The position numbers and the translations under genes were made by a program. The notes beneath the pieces were generated by a model. It had not been told where the DNA came from. It did no database searches and saw nothing but the letters and a program-made list of their open reading frames with translations. This document shows, piece by piece, positions 34,954 to 45,053 of a stretch of 64,000 nt of DNA. Every line of letters starts with the position of its first letter. Within the stretch, counting starts at the first letter, position 1. Origin of the DNA: Labrys monachus (GTDB lineage Bacteria > Pseudomonadota > Alphaproteobacteria > Rhizobiales > Labraceae); NCBI RefSeq assembly GCF_030814655.1, contig NZ_JAUSVK010000001.1:2313501-2377500 (forward strand), in the 5' to 3' direction.

Positions 34954-36264
34954 TCAATTGGGCGTGGCGGCGATCGCGGCGGATGCCCGCACGGCCGTGA
35001 CGGGGACGGAGGCGGTGCGGTCGCTCACGTCGGCCGTCGCCATTCCGCTGGTGGCGGGCCCCTGCACCGTCGGCGAATCGATGCTGTAGACGTCCGGGCG
35101 GAACTGCACGCTGCCGTCGGGGCTGCCCCATCCGGTCAGATACACCCAGGCCACCGGCACGGGCTTCGGCACCTTGATGGTCTTGGGCTGGCCGGAATCG
35201 ATCTGGTCCTGGATCGCCTGGCCGGTCCATTCGGTGCCTTCGAGCACCCAGGCCGCGAGATCCTGCGCCCCGGCGACGCGCGTGCAGCCGGAGGACTGGA
35301 AGCGGACATCGTAGCGGAACAGGTCGCGATGCGGCGAGTCGTGCATGTAGACGGCGTCGGGATTGGGCATGTCGATGCGCACGAAGCCGAGCGAATTATA
35401 GACGCCCGGATCCTGCTTGACGAGGAAGTCGGTGCCCTTCGCCCCCGTCCAGTCGATGGTGGCGGGATCGATCTCCCGGCCGCCGCGATAGACGCGCATA
35501 TGGTTCTCGGCGAGGTAGTTCGGATCCCTCACCATCTTCGGCATGATGTCCGCCTTCATGATCGATTGCGGCACGTTCCAATAGGGCAGGATGTTGACGG
35601 CGGTGACCCTGGTCTGCAGTGTCGGGGAGGCGCGGTCGGGGCTGCCGACCACTGTCGTGTAGGTGCGGCTGACGACGCCGTTCTCCACCGCCTCAAGGCT
35701 GGCGGCGGGAATGTTGGAGACGATGTAGCGCTCGCCGAACTTGAACTTCAGCGCGGCGAGCCGCGTCGCCGAGGCGTCGAGCTGGTGCAGCCTTTCCTCG
35801 ACCGGGACATTGAGCGCCGCCAGCGTGAGCCGGCCGACCGAACCGGTGAGGCTGAGCCCGTGCCGGGCCTGGAAATGTTCGAGCGCCTGCCGGGCGGCAT
35901 CATCGAACTGGTCGCTGGCGGGCAAGGCGGGGTCGAGGTCGCTGGTGATCGCGAGCCGCTTGCGGAGCGCGAGCACCACCTTGCCTCGGGCGCCCAGCCT
36001 GAGGCCCTGGGCGCTGGGCGGAAGCGACACCCAGCCGCCATTGCCGGCGATCTCCTCGTAATCGGAGATCGCCCTCAGCGTCAGATCGTAGGTCCGGGGC
36101 GAATAGTTCGGCTGGTCGTCCGCCCATGCTGGCGATCCGATCGCCAAGGCGGCCAGCAGGCCCAGGAAGACGGCGAGGCGCCCGCGCCCTTCTTCCGCAC
36201 GGACGGATGGCGGCTGCCCGAATGCCGGCCCCCGGAACAAACGCGAAAGCTGGGGAAAATCCAT
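34954..36264 (-). CDS. L,D-transpeptidase with peptidoglycan-binding domain (YcbB-like)
   Basis: This 436-residue periplasmic enzyme has an N-terminal membrane/signal segment (about residues 30-48, ending SPAWA), then a peptidoglycan-binding domain (FDDAARQALEHFQARHGLSLTG) and a YkuD catalytic domain. The catalytic motif is YMHDSPHRDLF followed by FQSSGCTRV, with nucleophile Cys327 and a nearby His. It forms 3-3 cross-links in peptidoglycan or attaches proteins. The C-terminal tail is Thr/Ala/Val-rich. It lies alone on the minus strand, divergent from the cytochrome c' gene. Confidence 0.9.
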   Translation of the reverse strand: MDFPQLSRLFRGPAFGQPPSVRAEEGRGRLAVFLGLLAALAIGSPAWADDQPNYSPRTYDLTLRAISDYEEIAGNGGWVSLPPSAQGLRLGARGKVVLALRKRLAITSDLDPALPASDQFDDAARQALEHFQARHGLSLTGSVGRLTLAALNVPVEERLHQLDASATRLAALKFKFGERYIVSNIPAASLEAVENGVVSRTYTTVVGSPDRASPTLQTRVTAVNILPYWNVPQSIMKADIMPKMVRDPNYLAENHMRVYRGGREIDPATIDWTGAKGTDFLVKQDPGVYNSLGFVRIDMPNPDAVYMHDSPHRDLFRYDVRFQSSGCTRVAGAQDLAAWVLEGTEWTGQAIQDQIDSGQPKTIKVPKPVPVAWVYLTGWGSPDGSVQFRPDVYSIDSPTVQGPATSGMATADVSDRTASVPVTAVRASAAIAATPN

Positions 36265-36495: not shown

Positions 36496-36930
36496 ATGAA
36501 ACGTTTCGCCATCGCTGCCGCGCTGGTTTCCTTCGGCGTCAGCGTCGCCTTTGCCGGACCGATCGAGGACCGGCAGGCGCTGATGAAGGGCATTGCCGGC
36601 GCCACCAAGGAAGCGGCGGGCTACGCCAAGGGGACGACGCCCTTCGATGCGGCCAAGGTCAAGGCTCTCCTGCAGGTCTATGTCGACGGCGCGGCGAAGC
36701 TGCCGACGCTCTTCCCCGAGGATTCGAAGACCGGCGGCACCGATCCGACCACGGCCTCGCCGAAGATCTGGGAAGACATGGCCGGTTTCAAGGCCCATGC
36801 CGACAAGCTCGGCGCCGACGCGACGGCGGCGATGGCCGCGACCGACCAGGCCAGCTTCGCCAAGGCCTTCGGCGTGATCGCGTCCAATTGCAACGCCTGC
36901 CATGGCGTCTATCGCGTCAAGAAGGGCTGA
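36496..36930 (+). CDS. Cytochrome c' (class II c-type cytochrome)
   Basis: This 144-residue periplasmic haem protein has a Sec signal peptide MKRFAIAAALVSFGVSVAFA. The haem-binding motif CNACH (Cys132, Cys135, His136) is at the very C-terminus, the hallmark of class II (four-helix bundle) cytochromes such as c' and c-556. Such proteins bind NO or act in electron transfer. The absence of an early Met or other clear axial ligand is not decisive by eye. The ATG at 36496 gives the signal peptide. It is the first of a run of haem and caspase-like genes in one direction, separated from the next gene by REP copies. Confidence 0.92.
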   Translation: MKRFAIAAALVSFGVSVAFAGPIEDRQALMKGIAGATKEAAGYAKGTTPFDAAKVKALLQVYVDGAAKLPTLFPEDSKTGGTDPTTASPKIWEDMAGFKAHADKLGADATAAMAATDQASFAKAFGVIASNCNACHGVYRVKKG

Positions 36931-36937
36931 GGTTTTC

Positions 36938-37013
36938 GGGGACGCGGCATCCCGTCCGCGTCCTCTCATCCTGCGTCGGGATGTTGCCAGGAGCGGGCGG
37001 AGACGCCCCGGGA
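36938..37013. repeat. REP-like inverted repeat
   Basis: GGGGACGCGGCATCCCGTCC (from 36938) and GGAGCGGGCGGAGACGCCCC (from 36990) form an imperfect inverted repeat related to the REP family around the RAYT. It starts right after the cytochrome c' stop codon and could end or protect that transcript. Confidence 0.55.
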
Positions 37014-37117
37014 TGGTGAGAGAAGATCGTTTTCGAGGCGACGGTTTGAACTTTGTCATCGCCGGGACAAGCCCGGGCAGGACAAGATCGCAGCCTTCCC
37101 TCCGTTCCGGCATCGAT

Positions 37118-37145
37118 GGCAGGGGGCTGCCCGCGTTCCCGGGGG
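37118..37145. repeat. REP half-site
   Basis: GGCAGGGGGCTGCCCGCG followed by TTCCCGGGGG resembles the right arm of the REP elements (stem GGCAG/CTGCC, tail CGCGTTCCCGGG). It lies in the gap between the two cytochrome genes, about 85 bases before the next start codon. Nothing else was recognised in 36931-37228. Confidence 0.5.
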
Positions 37146-37228
37146 AGGCCCTTCGAATAAAAGGGCTGCAACCTGTGTTCAGGATCTGAGGCACCGGGCA
37201 CGAGCCGGGTGGAAGGGGGCTTTCCGGG

Positions 37229-38158
37229 ATGCGCATCAGAAAAATCATCGGCGGGCTCGTCGTGCTTGCTGCGGTCGGTTTCGGGGTGTTCTGGTTCGTC
37301 ACCGCGCCCTCCACCCTGCCTGCATCGGCCCTGGCAGCCGACTACAAGCCCGACCTCGCCAATGGCGAGACGATGTTCAATATCGGCGGCTGCGCGGCCT
37401 GCCACCAGTCGCCGGGCCAGGACGACAGGCTCAAGCTGGGCGGCGGCCTCGCCCTCGGCTCGCCCTTCGGCACCTTCCACGCGCCCAACATCTCGCCCGA
37501 CCCCGTCAACGGCATCGGCGGCTGGAGCGAGCTCGACTTCGTCAATGCGCTGCAGCGCGGCGTCGGCCGGCAGGGCGAGCACCTCTACCCGGCGCTACCC
37601 TACACATCCTATGCCCGTCTCAAGATCGAGGACGTGCGCGATCTCTTCGCTTACATCAAGACGCTGCCCGCCGTCGATACGCCCTCCAAGCCGCATGAGA
37701 TCGGGTTTCCCTTCGATATCCGCCGCCTGCTCGGGGGCTGGAAGTTCCTGTTCTTCGATGACAAGCCGTTCGTGCCCGATCCGAGCCGCAGCGCCGAATG
37801 GAATCGCGGCGCCTATCTGGTGGAGGGGCCCGGGCACTGTTCCGAATGTCACAGCCCTCGCAACGCCCTCGGCGCTATTGAAGCGGACAGGCGCTTCTCC
37901 GGGGCCCCGAATCCCGACGGCAAGGGTTGGGTGCCCAACATCACCCGCCACGCCGACGGCATCGCAAGCTGGTCGCAGGACGCGATTGCCGACTTCCTCA
38001 AGAGCGGCCTGACGCCGGACTTCGATTCGGCCGGGGGCAGCATGGCCGAGGTGATCCAGAACACCAGCCGCCTCGGCGATGCCGATCGCAAGGCAATGGC
38101 CGCCTATCTGGTGACGCTGCCGCCGGTTCCCGGCAAGGCGCCGCCGAAGAAATCCTGA
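37229..38158 (+). CDS. Di-haem c-type cytochrome
   Basis: This 309-residue protein has an N-terminal membrane anchor or uncleaved signal (about residues 5-25) and two c-type haem sites: CAACH at Cys55-His59 and CSECH at Cys204-His208. The spacing and the segments ISPDPVNGIGGWSELDFVNALQRGVG and NITRHADGIASWSQDAIADFL match the cytochrome subunits of membrane dehydrogenases (gluconate/alcohol type). No dehydrogenase subunit is adjacent. It instead precedes the caspase-like gene by about 70 bases in the same direction. Confidence 0.9.
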   Translation: MRIRKIIGGLVVLAAVGFGVFWFVTAPSTLPASALAADYKPDLANGETMFNIGGCAACHQSPGQDDRLKLGGGLALGSPFGTFHAPNISPDPVNGIGGWSELDFVNALQRGVGRQGEHLYPALPYTSYARLKIEDVRDLFAYIKTLPAVDTPSKPHEIGFPFDIRRLLGGWKFLFFDDKPFVPDPSRSAEWNRGAYLVEGPGHCSECHSPRNALGAIEADRRFSGAPNPDGKGWVPNITRHADGIASWSQDAIADFLKSGLTPDFDSAGGSMAEVIQNTSRLGDADRKAMAAYLVTLPPVPGKAPPKKS

Positions 38159-38229
38159 GCGCACGCCCCGCCAGCCGTGCCGCTCCTGGTCCGAAACCGG
38201 CTGGCTGCGGGCAGATGGAGGAGGAGAAG

Positions 38230-39837
38230 GTGGGATCATCGGCTGTCTCGACCGTGCTGCGGGCCGTCCTGCCGATGGCGGGACTGGCGTCGGCTGCGCT
38301 GGCCCCGGCGCCTGCGCTGGCGGCCGAGAGCTACGCCCTCGTGGTCGGCATCGACGCCTATACGGCACCGATCCCGGCGCTGCACGGCGCCGTGAACGAT
38401 GCCGAGGACATCGCGCAGGCCCTCCGCATGTCGGGCGTCCGGCAACTCGTCCTCCTCACCGACGGCCAAGCGACCAAGCCGGCCGTGGTGGCGGCCTGGG
38501 AGAGCCTTCTCGGCCAGGCGAAGGCGGGCGATACCATCTACTTCACCTATGCCGGCCACGGCTCGCAGGAGCCGGCCGCCGCCGACGATCCGGACGAGCC
38601 GGACGGGCTCGACGACAACCTGCCGCTGGTGAACTTCGCCCTGAAGGGACCGGGGCTCGCCGACCGCATCGTCGACAAGGAAATGGCGGTCTGGCTGAAG
38701 GAGGCCGAAGACAAGAAGGTCTATGCCGTCGTCGTCACCGACGCCTGCCACTCCGGCACCATGTATCGCTCGGTCTCGATGGGGCTGACCTACCGCGTCG
38801 CGCCCAAGCCGCAGATCGACAGGGCGGAACTGCTGCAATTCGCTCCTCCCGCCCCGAACGTGTCGGTGAAGGTCGACCCGAACGACCGTTTCACCTTCCT
38901 TGCCGGCGTCGCCGACGACAAGCTGGTGCCGGAGGTGACGATCGGCGGCCGGCAGCGCGGCGCGCTCTCCTTCGCCTTCGCCCGGGCGCTCGAAGGCCAG
39001 GCCGACGCCAACCATGACGGCGTGACCACCGAGAAGGAGCTCGTCTCCTTCGTCCGGGCCTCCGTCCTGCAGTCGACGCAGAGCCAGCAGGTCTCGCAAT
39101 CCTTCCCGACCGTGAGCCGGGACATTCCCGTCTTCGGCGCGAAGACGGCGACGGCAGACACGCCTTCCGCCCAGGATCTGCTCGCCGTCGCCGAGCAGGC
39201 CGTGGCCGACGCGCCGCTTCGCCTCGCTTTTCGCAACGGCGACGGGCCTTCGGCGGTGGCCGGGGCGGAGATCGTCGCCGACGAGGCCGGGGCCGACCTC
39301 GTCTACGACGTGGCGAAGCAGACCGTGGAGAAGCGGGTCGCCGGCATCGTCGCCGAGGATGTGGCGCCGTCGGGCCTGGCGGGCGTGGTCGCCAAATGGC
39401 GCGCCATCGCCTTCCTGCAGGCCTATGCCGGAGGCGCGATCCAGCCTTTCGAGGTCGCGGGCGGCTCGCGCACCTTCCTGCGCGGCGAGAGGCTGACCGT
39501 CGGCCTCGGCGCGTCGAGCCATCGCTTCATGACGCTGTTCAACCTGCCGCCCGACGGCAAGGTCGAGTTCCTCTACCCGGCATCGCCCGCCGAACATGAC
39601 GAGGATTGGAAGGGCAGGGCCTTCTCCCTGCCGCTGCAGGTCCGCGATCCCCCGTTCGGCGCCGAGCATCTGGTGGCCCTGCTTTCTGACCAGCCCCTCG
39701 ACGAGTTGCAGACGGCGCTCCAGGGCCTGAGCAGGCCGGATGCGGCGACCGTCCTGCCGGACACGCTGAAGAACGCGCTGAGCGGCAAGACCGTCACGGT
39801 CGGCATCGCCGACATCTTCACGAGCGGTGGGCCATGA
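38230..39837 (+). CDS. Caspase-like (peptidase C14) protein, exported
   Basis: This is a roughly 535-residue bacterial caspase homologue (orthocaspase/metacaspase type). The p20-like domain has both catalytic residues: His in YFTYAGHGSQ (residue 110) and Cys in VVVTDACHSGT (residue 173). ESYALVVGIDAY opens the fold. A Sec signal precedes it (LPMAGLASAALAPAPALA). The rest, about residues 310-535, is an unassigned domain. The GTG at 38230 is preferred. GGAGGAG lies four bases upstream, and starting at the ATG at 38215 would put Glu-Glu-Glu-Lys in front of the signal peptide. Its stop overlaps the next caspase-like gene (ATGA). The protease target is unknown; basic-residue cleavage is typical of the family. 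Confidence 0.85.
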   Translation: MGSSAVSTVLRAVLPMAGLASAALAPAPALAAESYALVVGIDAYTAPIPALHGAVNDAEDIAQALRMSGVRQLVLLTDGQATKPAVVAAWESLLGQAKAGDTIYFTYAGHGSQEPAAADDPDEPDGLDDNLPLVNFALKGPGLADRIVDKEMAVWLKEAEDKKVYAVVVTDACHSGTMYRSVSMGLTYRVAPKPQIDRAELLQFAPPAPNVSVKVDPNDRFTFLAGVADDKLVPEVTIGGRQRGALSFAFARALEGQADANHDGVTTEKELVSFVRASVLQSTQSQQVSQSFPTVSRDIPVFGAKTATADTPSAQDLLAVAEQAVADAPLRLAFRNGDGPSAVAGAEIVADEAGADLVYDVAKQTVEKRVAGIVAEDVAPSGLAGVVAKWRAIAFLQAYAGGAIQPFEVAGGSRTFLRGERLTVGLGASSHRFMTLFNLPPDGKVEFLYPASPAEHDEDWKGRAFSLPLQVRDPPFGAEHLVALLSDQPLDELQTALQGLSRPDAATVLPDTLKNALSGKTVTVGIADIFTSGGP

Positions 39838-41471
39838 CAGTCCGTTTGAGAACCTCCATCATCCGAACGCCCGCCATTCCCGGCGAGCCGCGCGGCGGCG
39901 ACGGAAAGGGATCCAGGGGGAGGGATGCCACCCCGCGTCACGGATCCCCATCGTTCGTCGGTGCCACGGTGCCCAAACCGCGCCTGAGAGCGCTTCTCAC
40001 CCGCTTCGGATCGGCCTGCCTCGCCGTTGTGGCGGGCTTCATCCCGCTTTCGGCAGCCTGGGCCGATCGCGCCCTCGTCATCGGCGTGGACAGCTACCGG
40101 GAAGGCTCGCTTTCACCCGATTTCAAGGGCGCCGCCCGCGCCGATGCCCTCCGCATGCGGGGATTGCTGACCGGGGCGCTGGGCTACGGGCCGGATGACG
40201 TCCGGCTGCTGCTCGACGGTCAGGCGAGCCGCGCCGCCATTGTCGACGGGCTACAGGGCTGGCTGTCGCAGGCCGGGCCGGGCGAGCGGGTGTTCTTCTA
40301 TTTCGCCGGCGAAGGCCATTTCATCGGGGACGGTCCGAACCGCGAGGATACCATCCTGCCCGTCGATGCCACGATCGAGCGCAGGGACGGTGCCGTCACC
40401 GTCGGCAACAGCCTCGGCGAGAGCCGGATCGACGCGCTGCTTGGCCGGCTGCAGGGCCGCCACGTCACGGAAGTCATCGATTCCAGCCATTCGGGCGCGG
40501 TCACCCGGTCGATCGTGGTCGAGGCGGCCGGCGGCAATCCGGCGGCCCGTTCGCCGCAGCTCGAGGCGCGGACCCGCTCGATCGTGGTCGAGCCCCAGCT
40601 CGGGCAGGAAGGCGGGCATGGGCTGCCGCCCGGGCTCGACCTCGTCAAATGGGAGGCGGTCTCGCCGTCCCAGGTCGCCCTGATCGACGAGGATGCCGCG
40701 CCCGGCTATCGCGGCGTGTTCACCACGGCCTTCGCCGACGGCATCGAAAAGGGCCTGGCCGACGCCAATCGCAACGGCGTGATCTCCAACCAGGAACTGC
40801 TCGATTATGTCCGCGGGCGATCCTCCGCCTATTGCGCCGGCCATGCCGACCGCTGCCCGATGGGGCTGACGCCGATCCTGTCGGGCGCCGGCGCCGCCCT
40901 CGACGTCGCCGCTTCCGCCACCGGCGCCGCCGGTCCGCTCAACCAGGGGCGGCCGAGCGCCGAGAAGATCCTCGACATCCTCGGCGCCAGGCTCGCCGAC
41001 GACATCCGCCTCGAGCAATTGCCCGCCTCGCCGGTCCGGCTCGGCACGCGGGACATGCATTTCCGGGTGACGTCGTCGCAGGACGGCTTCCTCGTGCTGC
41101 TCTCGGTCTCCGACGACGGCGAGGTGGTGCAGCTCTTCCCGAACGCCATCGCGGCCGCCCACGGCAAGGACGGGCGCATCCTGGCCGGGCGCCCGATCAC
41201 GGTGCCCGATTCCAGCTACGGCATCCGCTTCGATGCGACCTCTGTGACGAAAGGTACAGTGCTGGCGCTGGTTGCGATCGATCCTCTGAAACTGCCGCAA
41301 GGCTTCGTCACGCGGCGGATCGACGTGATTCCGCAGGACGAAGTGAACTCGACCGTGCTGCCCGAACTCGCCCAGAGCCTTGCCGCGCCCGCCCATGCCG
41401 ATGGCGTCGAGGCCAACGCCAAGGCGGTCGGGCGGTCGGTCGCCACGCTGCGCTACGAGATCGTCCCCTAG
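39834..41471 (+). CDS. Caspase-like protein without catalytic residues, C-terminal DUF4384-like domain
   Basis: This 545-residue paralogue has the same fold start (DRALVIGVDSYRE), but both catalytic positions are changed. The His loop reads FYFAGEGHF (Glu160 at the His position) and the Cys loop reads VIDSSHSGA (Ser218 for Cys). The C-terminal third (FRVTSSQDGFLVLLSVSDDG and after) matches the DUF4384 pattern. It is probably a regulatory or scaffold partner of the active caspase next to it. The ATG at 39834 overlaps the upstream TGA. A GTG at 39969 would remove an odd Arg/Gly-rich leader and start directly at a good signal peptide (ending PLSAAWA), so the true start may be there. Confidence 0.8.
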   Translation: MTVRLRTSIIRTPAIPGEPRGGDGKGSRGRDATPRHGSPSFVGATVPKPRLRALLTRFGSACLAVVAGFIPLSAAWADRALVIGVDSYREGSLSPDFKGAARADALRMRGLLTGALGYGPDDVRLLLDGQASRAAIVDGLQGWLSQAGPGERVFFYFAGEGHFIGDGPNREDTILPVDATIERRDGAVTVGNSLGESRIDALLGRLQGRHVTEVIDSSHSGAVTRSIVVEAAGGNPAARSPQLEARTRSIVVEPQLGQEGGHGLPPGLDLVKWEAVSPSQVALIDEDAAPGYRGVFTTAFADGIEKGLADANRNGVISNQELLDYVRGRSSAYCAGHADRCPMGLTPILSGAGAALDVAASATGAAGPLNQGRPSAEKILDILGARLADDIRLEQLPASPVRLGTRDMHFRVTSSQDGFLVLLSVSDDGEVVQLFPNAIAAAHGKDGRILAGRPITVPDSSYGIRFDATSVTKGTVLALVAIDPLKLPQGFVTRRIDVIPQDEVNSTVLPELAQSLAAPAHADGVEANAKAVGRSVATLRYEIVP

Positions 41472-41510
41472 AGCAAAGCGCGTTCAGGCAGAAGCGGCGC
41501 TTTGCTCTAG
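41468..41510 (+). terminator. Inverted repeat with T-rich tail after the second caspase gene
   Basis: CTAGAGCAAAGCGC (41468-41481, containing the stop codon) pairs perfectly with GCGCTTTGCTCTAG (41497-41510), and CTCTTTGTTTTT follows. This can terminate the caspase transcript. The rest of the gap to 41683 holds further short repeat-like motifs (AAAACGCCCTAGGGCG) and the GGGAG ribosome binding site of the next gene. Confidence 0.65.
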
Positions 41511-41683
41511 CTCTTTGTTTTTCGACGCGTCTTTGCGTTTTGCCGATCCCGTCAAAACACAAAACGCCCTAGGGCGGCCTGCGCGCCTGCGCAAACGGCC
41601 CTTTTGCTCTACCCCCTTGTTTCGACGTGTTTTTCAATTCCCGCCGCTACCGTCCTATCGCCAGACGCTCCAGGGAGACCGTC

Positions 41684-44143
41684 ATGATCCACCGCAATTC
41701 GATGCGCATCGCGGGCCTGATGGTCGCGGCGAGCCTGTTGACGGGTTCCGGCCCGCTGGCCGCCGCGGCGGTCGCCGACGGCGCCAAGCCGGCGGCTTCC
41801 GTGCCGGCTGCCGCCGATCCCGCACCGGCCGCCCCTGCCGCGCAGGCTCCCGCCGCGCCCGCAGCGGCGACGCCGGAGCCCGTGCAAGCCGCGGCACCGG
41901 CCGCCGTCGCCGTCCCGGCCGACGTGAAGGTGCCGGGGGATCCGATCGCCAAGGCCGCCTTCGACGTCCTCGAAAAGCATTGCTCGCGCTGCCACCAGGC
42001 CGGCATGCTGACGGCGCGCGAGAAGCCGGCCAAGAATTTCGGCAACATCATGAAGCTGGACGAGATCGCCGCCGATCCTCACCTGATCCAGGCCGGCAAT
42101 CCCGAGGGCTCGAAGCTGTTCCAGCAGATCATCAACAAGGAGATGCCCTACGACGTGAACTACGAGTTCGACACGACCAAGCCGGAAGTGACCGCCGCCG
42201 ACATCGACGCGCTCCGGACCTGGATCAAGTCGACGGGCGACCAGGAGGCGGCCGCCTGCTCGGGCCGCAAATTCGTCACCGCCGGGGACATCGTCGGCGA
42301 CATCGCGGCCGACCTGCAGAAGCAGCCCGACCACCGCGTGCGCGGCATGCGCTATTTCACGTTGACCAACCTCTACAACGCCTGCGCCACCGACGAGGCG
42401 ATGAAGGTCTATCGCCAGGGGCTCGTCAAGCTGCTCAACGGCTTCGACCGCCGCTCGGACGTGATCAGGCTCACCACCATCGATCCCGAGGAGACGATCG
42501 TCGCCGTCAATCTCGACGATCTCGGCTGGAGCGAGGGCGACTGGAACACCGTGCTGGCCGCCTATCCCTACGCGACCAAGCCCGACGTCAAGGCGTTTGA
42601 TTTCGTCGCGCAGCAGACCGGTACCGTCCTGCCCTATGTCCGTGCCGACTGGTTCGGCTTCACCGCCTCGCAGCCGCCGCTCTACGACACGCTGCTGCAG
42701 CTTCCGGCCGACTATCCCGGCCTGGCCGACAAGCTCGGCGTCGACATCGCCTCCGATATCGCGAAATTCGTCGCCCAGCGCGCCGGCTTCCAGAAGTCGG
42801 GCGTGTCGCAGAACAATCGGCTGATCGAGCGCCATCCGATCGCCACCGGCTATTTCTGGACGTCCTACGACTTTTCCGAATCCAAGGGCTTCCAGAGCCT
42901 GTTCCTGCATCCGCTCGGCCCCGGCGGCGACAACGGTTTCCGGCATGCCGGCGGCGAAACCATCTTCTCGCTGCCGAACGGCTTCCAGGCCTATTACCTC
43001 AACAAATCGGACGGCACCCGCCTCGACAAGGGGCCGACGCAGATCGTGCGCGATCCCTCGCGGCGCGATCTCGCGGTGACCAACGGCATTTCCTGCATGG
43101 GATGCCACGACCAGGGCCTGCGCAAGGCCAAGGACGAGGTGCGCAAGGCCGTGCTCGCCGACCATTCCTTCTCCAAGGACGATCGCGAGACCGTCGCCGC
43201 GCTCTATCCCGAGAACGACAGGATGGACGCCCTCATCGGCGAGGACTTCGATCGCTTCAACGCCGCCATGAAGCGGGCCGGTCTTGATCCCACCCTCAAG
43301 CTCGCCGGCGTCGAGATGACCAACGCGCTGTTCAAGCGCTATGAGGACGACCTCTCGCTGCGCCGCGCCGCCGCCGAATACGGCTTCCAGCCCGACGCCT
43401 TCAAGGAGCATTTCATCGAGGCCGGCCCGGAAGCCATCGCCCTGATGCGCCGCCTCGACCAGGGCATCGTGCCGCGCGACCAGTTCGAGGCGCTGTTCAT
43501 CAAATTCGTCGAGGGCGCCACCGAGGATCGGGTGATCGACGTCTCCAGCCTGGAGGGCGCCCAGAAGGTGGCCGAGCCCATCTTCAAGCCGAGCTCGGGC
43601 GGATCCTTCGACCTGCAGCTCACGGCCGACAAGAGCGTCTACCGGCAGAACGACGCCGCGGTGCTCCAGGTCGTCTCGACGCGCGACTGCAACCTCTTCG
43701 TCGTCAATGTCGACAAGAGCGGCACGGGCACGGTGATCTTCCCCAACAAGTTCCAGGCCGATAATGCCGTGAAGGCGGGGCAGGCGGTGGTGCTCGGCGG
43801 GCCTGGCTCGAAGTTCAAGTTCCGTCTGGCCGACATCGGGCAGGAGAAGGTGGTGGCGGTCTGCCGCGTCAACAATGCGACGCGCGAGATCGCCGGCACC
43901 GAGATCGATCCGCAGCACCGCAGCTTCGCCGAGATCCCGAATTTCGACCGGGGCCTGACGCGGCAGATCATCGTCGAATCGAACGAGGCGCGTGACGAGG
44001 CCTCGTCCCTCGATGCGGACGGACGCAAGGATGCGCAGTTCGCCAAGATCGCGGGCGCCGCCGGCGGCAAGGTCGCCTCCGGCGCCCCGGATGCGGCCCG
44101 CCGCTCGGTCGCCTCCACCGCGATCGTCATCCCGGTTCAGTGA
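41684..44143 (+). CDS. Large di-haem cytochrome c-like protein with DUF4384-like C-terminus
   Basis: This 819-residue exported protein begins with a signal peptide (to about residue 30), then an Ala/Pro-rich linker (about 33-80). A c-type haem motif CSRCH follows at Cys100-His104, and after a long central region comes a second, CMGCH, at Cys471-His475 (NGISCMGCHDQGL). The C-terminal part (FDLQLTADKSVYRQNDAAVL, then NLFVVNVDKSGTGTVIFPN) resembles the DUF4384 domain of the neighbouring caspase-like protein. I do not recognise an enzyme family for the middle. The ATG at 41684 follows CAGGGAGACC. Ten bases separate it from the OmpA-type gene, so the two form one unit. Confidence 0.8.
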   Translation: MIHRNSMRIAGLMVAASLLTGSGPLAAAAVADGAKPAASVPAAADPAPAAPAAQAPAAPAAATPEPVQAAAPAAVAVPADVKVPGDPIAKAAFDVLEKHCSRCHQAGMLTAREKPAKNFGNIMKLDEIAADPHLIQAGNPEGSKLFQQIINKEMPYDVNYEFDTTKPEVTAADIDALRTWIKSTGDQEAAACSGRKFVTAGDIVGDIAADLQKQPDHRVRGMRYFTLTNLYNACATDEAMKVYRQGLVKLLNGFDRRSDVIRLTTIDPEETIVAVNLDDLGWSEGDWNTVLAAYPYATKPDVKAFDFVAQQTGTVLPYVRADWFGFTASQPPLYDTLLQLPADYPGLADKLGVDIASDIAKFVAQRAGFQKSGVSQNNRLIERHPIATGYFWTSYDFSESKGFQSLFLHPLGPGGDNGFRHAGGETIFSLPNGFQAYYLNKSDGTRLDKGPTQIVRDPSRRDLAVTNGISCMGCHDQGLRKAKDEVRKAVLADHSFSKDDRETVAALYPENDRMDALIGEDFDRFNAAMKRAGLDPTLKLAGVEMTNALFKRYEDDLSLRRAAAEYGFQPDAFKEHFIEAGPEAIALMRRLDQGIVPRDQFEALFIKFVEGATEDRVIDVSSLEGAQKVAEPIFKPSSGGSFDLQLTADKSVYRQNDAAVLQVVSTRDCNLFVVNVDKSGTGTVIFPNKFQADNAVKAGQAVVLGGPGSKFKFRLADIGQEKVVAVCRVNNATREIAGTEIDPQHRSFAEIPNFDRGLTRQIIVESNEARDEASSLDADGRKDAQFAKIAGAAGGKVASGAPDAARRSVASTAIVIPVQ

Positions 44144-44153
44144 GGGCAGGACG

Positions 44154-45053
44154 ATGATGCGCGCCTTTCTCATGCCGCTGGCGGCTGCCGGCTTCTGCCT
44201 CGCGGCGGCGCTGCCGGCCCTCGCCGACTGCGCGAGCCTCGATGCGTCGGTGAAGGCCGCCATCGCCTCCGGCAATCCCTCCACCCTGCCGGCCCTCGCC
44301 GACGCCATCGCCCGGGATACCTCCTGCGACAGCGCCTATGTCGACGTCGCGCGTCGCAACATGGCGCTCGCCTATATGCTGGCGGGCGAGCAGCCCGACG
44401 GCAGCTACGGTCCGGACTATGTCGTCGGCGCCGCCAAGATCGCCCGGCCCTGGCAGGTCGCCATGGCGCTGGGCGACCTCGACTACGAGGCGAAGAACTA
44501 TCCGGCCGCGGTGGAGGCCTATGAGGCGGCGATCAACGACATCCGCGACGCGAAGCGGGTGCCGAAGGCGCCCTCGCGCCAGACCGAGGAATATCTCGCC
44601 AAGCGCGCCTACCAGGCCAAGTCGCTCGCGCCGACCTATATCGCCTCGCGCGGCTTCCGCGGCGAGCCGGAGGGCGTGATGGTGCCGACCTTCCGCAACT
44701 TCACCGCCGTCTCCGTGCCCGTGCCGATCCGCTTCGACACCGACCAGGCGACATTGACCCCGGACGGGGAGAAGGCGGTGGACGACCTCTACAACTACCT
44801 CAAGACCCAGTCGATCGGGCAGCTCGTCCTCGTCGGCCACACCGACGAACGCGGCTCGGCGCCGCACAACATGGCCCTGTCGAAGGCGCGGGCGACGACG
44901 GTGGCTATGGCCCTGCAGCGGCGCGGGCTGGCCATCGCCATCGATATCGAGGGGCATGGCGACCATGAGCCCTTCGCCGCCGACGACCGCTCGAAATACA
45001 GCCGCGACGAACTCTATGCCTTCGACCGCCGGGTGGAATTCGAGGTGCATTGA
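44154..45053 (+). CDS. OmpA-family peptidoglycan-binding protein with TPR-like region
   Basis: This 299-residue protein has a signal peptide (MMRAFLMPLAAAGFCLAAALPALA) and a helical TPR-like middle (about residues 85-150, LGDLDYEAKNYPAAVEAYEAAINDI). A C-terminal OmpA domain follows: VPVPIRFDTDQATLTPDGEKAVDDLYNYLK, with the binding motif LVGHTDERGSAPHNMALSKARA. It should sit in the periplasm bound to peptidoglycan. It follows the large cytochrome after ten bases and closes the run of genes that starts at 36.5 kb. It probably anchors partners of that module, an inference from context only. Confidence 0.88.
   Translation: MMRAFLMPLAAAGFCLAAALPALADCASLDASVKAAIASGNPSTLPALADAIARDTSCDSAYVDVARRNMALAYMLAGEQPDGSYGPDYVVGAAKIARPWQVAMALGDLDYEAKNYPAAVEAYEAAINDIRDAKRVPKAPSRQTEEYLAKRAYQAKSLAPTYIASRGFRGEPEGVMVPTFRNFTAVSVPVPIRFDTDQATLTPDGEKAVDDLYNYLKTQSIGQLVLVGHTDERGSAPHNMALSKARATTVAMALQRRGLAIAIDIEGHGDHEPFAADDRSKYSRDELYAFDRRVEFEVH

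Follow-up and report, generated by a model that had tools for sequence, protein, structure and literature searches.

Caspases are common in bacteria, but for few of them is a trigger or substrate known, and most discussion treats them as cytoplasmic proteases of cell death or defence. A locus of the soil bacterium Labrys monachus, in which two caspase homologues with export signals are encoded among c-type cytochromes, raises the question of whether such a protease can work in the periplasm with haem proteins as its partners. We analysed a window of 64,000 nucleotides (contig NZ_JAUSVK010000001.1, positions 2,313,501 to 2,377,500; positions below are those of the window) from this 6.92 Mb genome, whose closest named relatives in our scan were Labrys okinawensis, Labrys sp. 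WJW and Labrys sp. KNU-23. Six plus-strand open reading frames lie at 36496-45053, each uninterrupted at its claimed coordinates. Caspase and haem genes of these types are linked across Hyphomicrobiales. We tentatively read the locus, at slightly less than even confidence, as a conserved exported (periplasmic) protease-plus-haem module of this order, in which a haem complex would be coupled to a peptidoglycan-tethered caspase pair and DUF4384 would be the shared docking domain. The features are:

36496..36930, plus strand: gene 1, cytochrome c' (class II, PF01322), 144 residues, with a Sec-type signal and a CNACH haem motif close to the C-terminus; its orthologues adjoin di-haem genes in other families.
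37229..38158, plus strand: gene 2, FdhC-like di-haem cytochrome c with an N-terminal membrane segment, resembling the first two haem domains of FdhC-type subunits of periplasmic dehydrogenases.
38230..39837, plus strand: gene 3, exported caspase (Peptidase_C14) with a GTG start behind a GGAGGAG site, His110 and Cys173 present, and a weak DUF4384-like tail.
39834..41471, plus strand: gene 4, exported pseudo-caspase (Glu in place of the His, Ser in place of the Cys) with a DUF4384 tail, an ATGA overlap with gene 3, and under purifying selection.
41468..41510, no strand: inverted repeat with 14-bp perfect arms and a 15-nt spacer, spanning the gene 4 stop codon.
41684..44143, plus strand: gene 5, di-haem protein of 819 residues with a signal, an Ala/Pro linker, a c-haem domain (CSRCH, Met154), a central domain with the second haem (CMGCH), and an immunoglobulin-like (Ig-like) DUF4384.
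44154..45053, plus strand: gene 6, exported TPR-like/OmpA-C protein with peptidoglycan-binding residues (GHTD231, NxxLSxxR246) and no lipobox.

Pfam, PADLOC and alignment identified the domains, the Pfam matches including two Cytochrom_C-type domains, and bore out the original prediction of six exported plus-strand genes in a row. Signal peptides were assessed by eye: each N-terminus resembles a Sec signal, with a membrane segment instead in gene 2, and all parts of the module appear to be located in the periplasm. Purifying selection was found on all six genes in the closest Labrys pair (ratios of nonsynonymous to synonymous substitution rates, dN/dS, of 0.05-0.15), which rules out a gene-finding artefact.

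The cluster can be divided into a haem half (cytochrome c', FdhC-like di-haem cytochrome, di-haem/DUF4384 protein) and a protease half (DUF4384 protein, OmpA protein, and the first and second caspases, casp1 and casp2). All six genes were present in the same order in three other Labrys genomes (G001, G003, G004), and in a fourth (G002) the cluster is divided between two contig ends. Bauldia (L047 in G204) keeps the order di-haem cytochrome, caspase, pseudo-caspase, di-haem/DUF4384 protein and OmpA protein at 40-52% identity. The order in Afifellaceae (L051, L052) is di-haem/DUF4384 protein, OmpA protein, caspase, caspase, and at another locus (L048 in G089) the two halves share a contig, the caspase genes being about 9 kb apart. 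When a cluster was defined as co-directional genes with gaps of at most 1.5 kb that include a caspase gene together with one or more of the three haem-protein genes, such clusters were detected, with varied gene orders, in nine GTDB families of Hyphomicrobiales, as well as in unassigned Hyphomicrobium and Hyphomicrobiaceae metagenome-assembled genomes and one planctomycete of the Pirellulaceae. A gene for the cell-wall anchor is often present as well. Among 397 genomes of the order, 52 contain the di-haem type and 54 the caspase type; both occur in 16, compared with 7.1 expected (p=4e-4), and lie within 12 kb of each other in 12 of these 16. The 12 comprise four Labrys genomes, which represent a single lineage, and eight others from seven families. 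The di-haem protein is nearly absent from the rest of the Alphaproteobacteria, with one match besides the window's own genome among 385 genomes. As a control, the surroundings of the seven other Labrys caspases identified by Pfam were checked to a distance of about 7 kb, and they contain neither a haem nor an OmpA nor a DUF4384 gene. The linkage across Hyphomicrobiales is thus present, with the full order in Labrys and subsets in nine families, contrary to the lack of conserved linkage that the original prediction had named as its refutation. The original prediction had taken the six genes as one exported module forming one complex. The module is supported by the order kept in Labrys, the subsets in nine families and the planctomycete, and the fusion of genes 2 and 5 elsewhere; that its products form a single physical complex we infer.

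The relation between DUF4384 and caspases was scored at 80 named loci encoding relatives of gene 5, 15 with DUF4384 and 65 without, by searching for a caspase within 6 kb. A caspase was found near 11 of the 15 DUF4384-bearing relatives, whereas it was found near only one of the 65 lacking the domain (Fisher p=1.5e-9; p=1.3e-8 without Labrys). In two of the four DUF4384-bearing exceptions the contig ends on the side that matters, and a third lies on a 5.8-kb contig. The DUF4384-less relatives come chiefly from Planctomycetes and Poribacteria; in non-proteobacteria alone, the counts were 2/3 versus 1/64 loci (p=0.004). The caspase profiles used were built from Hyphomicrobiales and might miss planctomycete caspases. 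A check with PF00656 of 12 whole genomes revealed no extra caspase adjoining a DUF4384-less relative, and the single DUF4384-less match (L099) was not recovered with PF00656 and may be spurious. In the planctomycete locus (L064, Pirellulaceae), the genome's single PF00656 gene (E<=1e-6) adjoins the DUF4384-bearing di-haem gene. These results mark out DUF4384 as the predictor of an adjacent caspase.

Of the cytochromes, gene 1 scored 99 bits against PF01322 (cut-off 26.5) and has the CNACH motif of a class II cytochrome c'. Gene 2 is a di-haem c-type cytochrome by Pfam and is homologous to FdhC-type c-haem domains (E=1.3e-56 against 7w2j_C), its nearest relatives being cytochrome subunits of fructose, aldehyde, glucose and alcohol dehydrogenases. 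Over its full length it aligns with haem domains one and two of the tri-haem FdhC subunits (7w2j, 8gy3, 8hdd, 8gy2). Unlike in the FdhC systems, the third haem most likely has its counterpart in the DUF4384 protein, and neither the Labrys cluster nor its recurrent neighbours include a recognised dehydrogenase subunit, the rest of the genome not having been searched for such a catalytic partner. Genes 2 and 5 are fused into a single protein in eight genomes of four families, and the alignment of these fused relatives with FdhC runs on into the third haem. Because the fused protein continues along the FdhC alignment, the first haem of gene 5 most likely stands in for the third haem of FdhC.

The Pfam analysis of gene 5 detected c-haem and DUF4384, the latter at 50 bits and above its cut-off. 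An AlphaFold2 model had a predicted local distance difference test score (pLDDT) of 82, and of 92.8 for the central domain alone. In Foldseek, the DUF4384 part matched Ig-like sandwiches, namely an alpha-2-macroglobulin MG domain and SoxY, which name a common fold only; the modelled Ig-like sandwich is consistent with a docking domain. Foldseek gave no significant match for the whole di-haem protein or for the central domain. A structural ranking of the central domain placed Thermus cytochrome c'-beta at the top, a weak match with Z under 8 (Z 6.2, 103 residues, 3.4 A), followed by two cytochrome P460 structures (Z 4.8 and 4.7), the next best being at most 3.6. These top three matches cover 103-113 residues with root-mean-square deviations of 3.4-4.1 A. 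The matched stretch stops just beyond the invariant CXXCH, as it does in the P460/c'-beta family (PF16694), and an Asp 8-9 residues past the haem His is conserved in that family and invariant in the central domain of gene 5. Unlike P460/c'-beta proteins, the central domain has larger insertions and no Pfam sequence match: searches of the genome and of the aligned relatives with the PF16694 model gave none at E<=10. The second haem domain of gene 5 may thus have a cytochrome P460/c'-beta fold, which we offer as a weak lead and not as an assignment. We take cytochrome c' and P460/c'-beta to be types that bind nitric oxide (NO); if the fold is right, the module would include two haem proteins of such types. 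Fatty acid cis/trans isomerase Cti (PF06934), which shows weak profile similarity to gene 5 after the first haem (64% probability, 97 columns), was rejected as an identity for the protein because the similarity is local and nothing extends over the remainder; the second haem is absent from Cti. At one locus (L034 8105-10216, G040), a di-haem/DUF4384 paralogue has no haem motifs, yet still stands behind a di-haem cytochrome gene.

Gene 3 was assigned to Peptidase_C14 (PF00656; 47 bits, cut-off 21), and metacaspase structures matched its profile at E=1.8e-25. His110 and Cys173 are kept in all Labrys, in agreement with the active-site-intact caspase that had been proposed. With a conserved Asp two residues before the Cys and an ND motif, the enzyme is predicted to cleave after basic residues. 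Its DUF4384 tail is below threshold (20 bits, cut-off 27). Gene 4 was not called a caspase by Pfam, which detected its DUF4384 (39 bits, above cut-off); the PADLOC caspase model matched at 64 bits, and the NCBIfam caspase model at 30 bits, far under the cut-off of 140. The protein is alignable with active caspase relatives, and both dyad sites are replaced, the His by Glu (Gln in other Labrys) and the Cys by Ser, so that the predicted dead paralogue is a pseudo-orthocaspase. It evolves under constraint (dN/dS 0.15 between two close Labrys). The ATGA overlap of the two genes at 39834-39837 is real; similar start-stop overlaps occur in other Labrys, Afifellaceae and others. In this strain, a GTG farther downstream, at 39969, could also be the start.

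The two caspases fall into separate, ancient orthologue groups that travel as a pair. The dyad of casp1 is almost always intact and that of casp2 is intact in most families; it is lost in Labrys (Glu/Gln, Ser) and, with different replacements, in Bauldia (Leu, Gly), catalysis having been lost independently in the two. In three of four loci of the DUF4384-plus-OmpA type examined (L200-L202, but not L206), casp2 is QC. Since the dead member is retained in a fixed pair, the results suggest that the inactive second caspase is a regulatory partner of the first. Three casp1-type genes (L205, L215, L218) have no dyad (Cys to Gly; His to Lys with Cys to Ser); thus, catalysis has been lost on the first caspase as well in some families. 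Another Labrys genome (G004) has a second casp1-type gene (L221 7011-8687) that has no module neighbours.

Gene 6 matched OmpA (PF00691) at 56 bits, and D231 and R246, both invariant, identify a diaminopimelate-binding OmpA-C domain. Its start follows the gene 5 stop by 10 bp, the distance originally reported.

We consider it possible, though with clear reservations, that the module is a haem-gated periplasmic caspase, in which a dedicated cytochrome complex sets the protease activity through its ligand or redox state, the pseudo-caspase is regulatory, and the whole arose independently of mitochondrial apoptosis. In such a mechanism, cytochrome c', the inner-membrane-anchored FdhC-like cytochrome and the di-haem DUF4384 protein would make up a chain of haems in which the first one of gene 5 replaces the third FdhC haem; the fusion of genes 2 and 5 elsewhere gives this step direct genomic support. 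The second haem domain, possibly of the P460/c'-beta type, and cytochrome c' might bind a small ligand such as NO, or report the quinone or redox state. The di-haem protein and both caspases could dock together, through their Ig-like DUF4384 domains, on the TPR/OmpA protein, which would hold the assembly to peptidoglycan. The second caspase, inactive in Labrys, would regulate the first as in other pairs of enzyme and pseudo-enzyme, a step with direct genomic support because the pairing is fixed. A change in haem state may then lead the active caspase to cleave envelope proteins after Lys or Arg.

Several observations weigh against this mechanism and against the module as a unit. Many genomes carry only one half, and one genome (G041) has the cytochrome trio (L036) and the caspase/OmpA/DUF4384 set (L040) on different contigs. 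The P460 match is weak, as its Z indicates, and a profile-profile comparison with P460 gave only 17% probability. The genes of the window probably form two or three transcription units. Since the halves are found singly in many genomes and split in G041, each half can act alone.

The strongest alternative reverses the direction: the haem proteins would be an enzyme of electron transfer or detoxification, and the caspase pair its processing, assembly or turnover protease, switched on by misfolded or damaged partners. The haem trio occurs without caspases in several genomes (L033, L036, L131), which indicates a function of its own that caspases join in particular lineages. However, the protease half is also found free of haem proteins (L040, L041, the Azospirillum plasmid L253 and Rhizobium L254), so it needs no cytochrome substrate, and we regard this alternative as unlikely, if a serious competitor. 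Less probable still, and in our judgement rather improbable, are two independent envelope modules, a cytochrome unit and a caspase/OmpA unit, that are co-inherited or co-regulated without physical contact. The split in G041 and the palindrome between genes 4 and 5 are what such modules would leave, whereas the recurrence of the linkage in differing gene orders in nine families and a planctomycete, and the prediction of a neighbouring caspase by DUF4384, are not expected from them. The palindrome, the 14-bp inverted repeat at 41468-41510, belongs to an interspersed family and is not a canonical terminator; the Labrys genome contains 13 of its arms (CTAGAGCAAAGCGC) and three complete copies (window 41468-41510; G000 2236240-2236282 and 6765305-6765347). 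The repeat or terminator-like structures that had been described in both gaps are therefore limited to this repeat: no plus-strand terminator was found in 36931-37228 or 41472-41683, no repeat in 36931-37228, and no Rfam element within the window.

A programmed-death or anti-phage system, in which a cytochrome triggers the caspase to kill the cell, is very unlikely. PADLOC lists caspases as candidate defence proteins, and the original prediction had likened caspases beside c-type cytochromes to the eukaryotic apoptosis pair. However, the components are all exported, the cluster contains no recognised NTPase/STAND sensor, nuclease or other effector, and gene order is stably kept within the genus; PADLOC gave only its generic caspase match, and phage defence was rejected. 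The likeness to animal apoptosis does not hold either. The intrinsic pathway (cytochrome c-Apaf-1-caspase) requires a class I single-haem cytochrome c and a STAND NTPase adaptor, whereas the module has a class II cytochrome c', FdhC-like and multidomain haem proteins, no recognised Apaf-1/STAND adaptor among its proteins, and a different compartment, the periplasm. Chance adjacency, for which no supporting point was found, is refuted almost to certainty by the conservation across families, the excess of co-occurrence, the DUF4384 test, the planctomycete locus L064 and the unlinked other caspases of Labrys.

In Alphaproteobacteria, Asplund-Samuelsson et al. (2012, PMC3501461) reported metacaspase operons with OmpA (14 operons), a Rhizobium operon of protease and protease inhibitor, and operons that hold several caspase genes; the main text of that paper does not mention cytochromes. 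The present locus is like those operons in having multiple caspase genes together with OmpA; compared with the Rhizobium operon, it has no trypsin, serpin or kinase, and haem proteins are in their place. The Rhizobium plasmid loci in our set (L254 6918-16767; L255 6907-16692) encode DUF4384, a caspase pair, a trypsin-like protease, a serpin and a Ser/Thr kinase (order DUF4384-caspase-trypsin/caspase-serpin-kinase), with a caspase in the same orthologue group as that of the module, and are probably the operon of PMC3501461. Pseudo-orthocaspases of Alphaproteobacteria without the His-Cys dyad have been described (Klemencic et al. 2019, PMC6426788), and one of their clades, the QC clade, carries trypsin and DUF4384 domains. 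This clade corresponds to the second caspase in L200-L202, whereas the pseudo-caspase of Labrys, with Glu/Gln and Ser, lacks a trypsin domain and comes paired with an active caspase and with haem proteins. No report of periplasmic or exported caspases was found in the open-access literature, within which the haem-bearing caspase module and its conservation seem to be new. The module supplies a conserved set of partners for a caspase: haem proteins that possibly sense or use NO or redox state, an active/pseudo pair, an adaptor-like domain and a cell-wall anchor. DUF4384 thereby gains a candidate role as a docking domain, and the module can be tested in culturable Labrys species.

A gene for a CHASE2-type adenylate cyclase lies near eight DUF4384/caspase or di-haem loci (L033 1-1719, L040 3081-5833, L185, L186, L188, L196, L197, L199), and a Crp-like regulator is close to six such loci; together they may serve the wider family as a signalling arm. 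Upstream of the cluster, the window has a divergent L,D-transpeptidase gene (34954-36264) that is kept in two other Labrys loci, and an L,D-transpeptidase gene was also found near the OmpA-caspase locus of G140 (L212).

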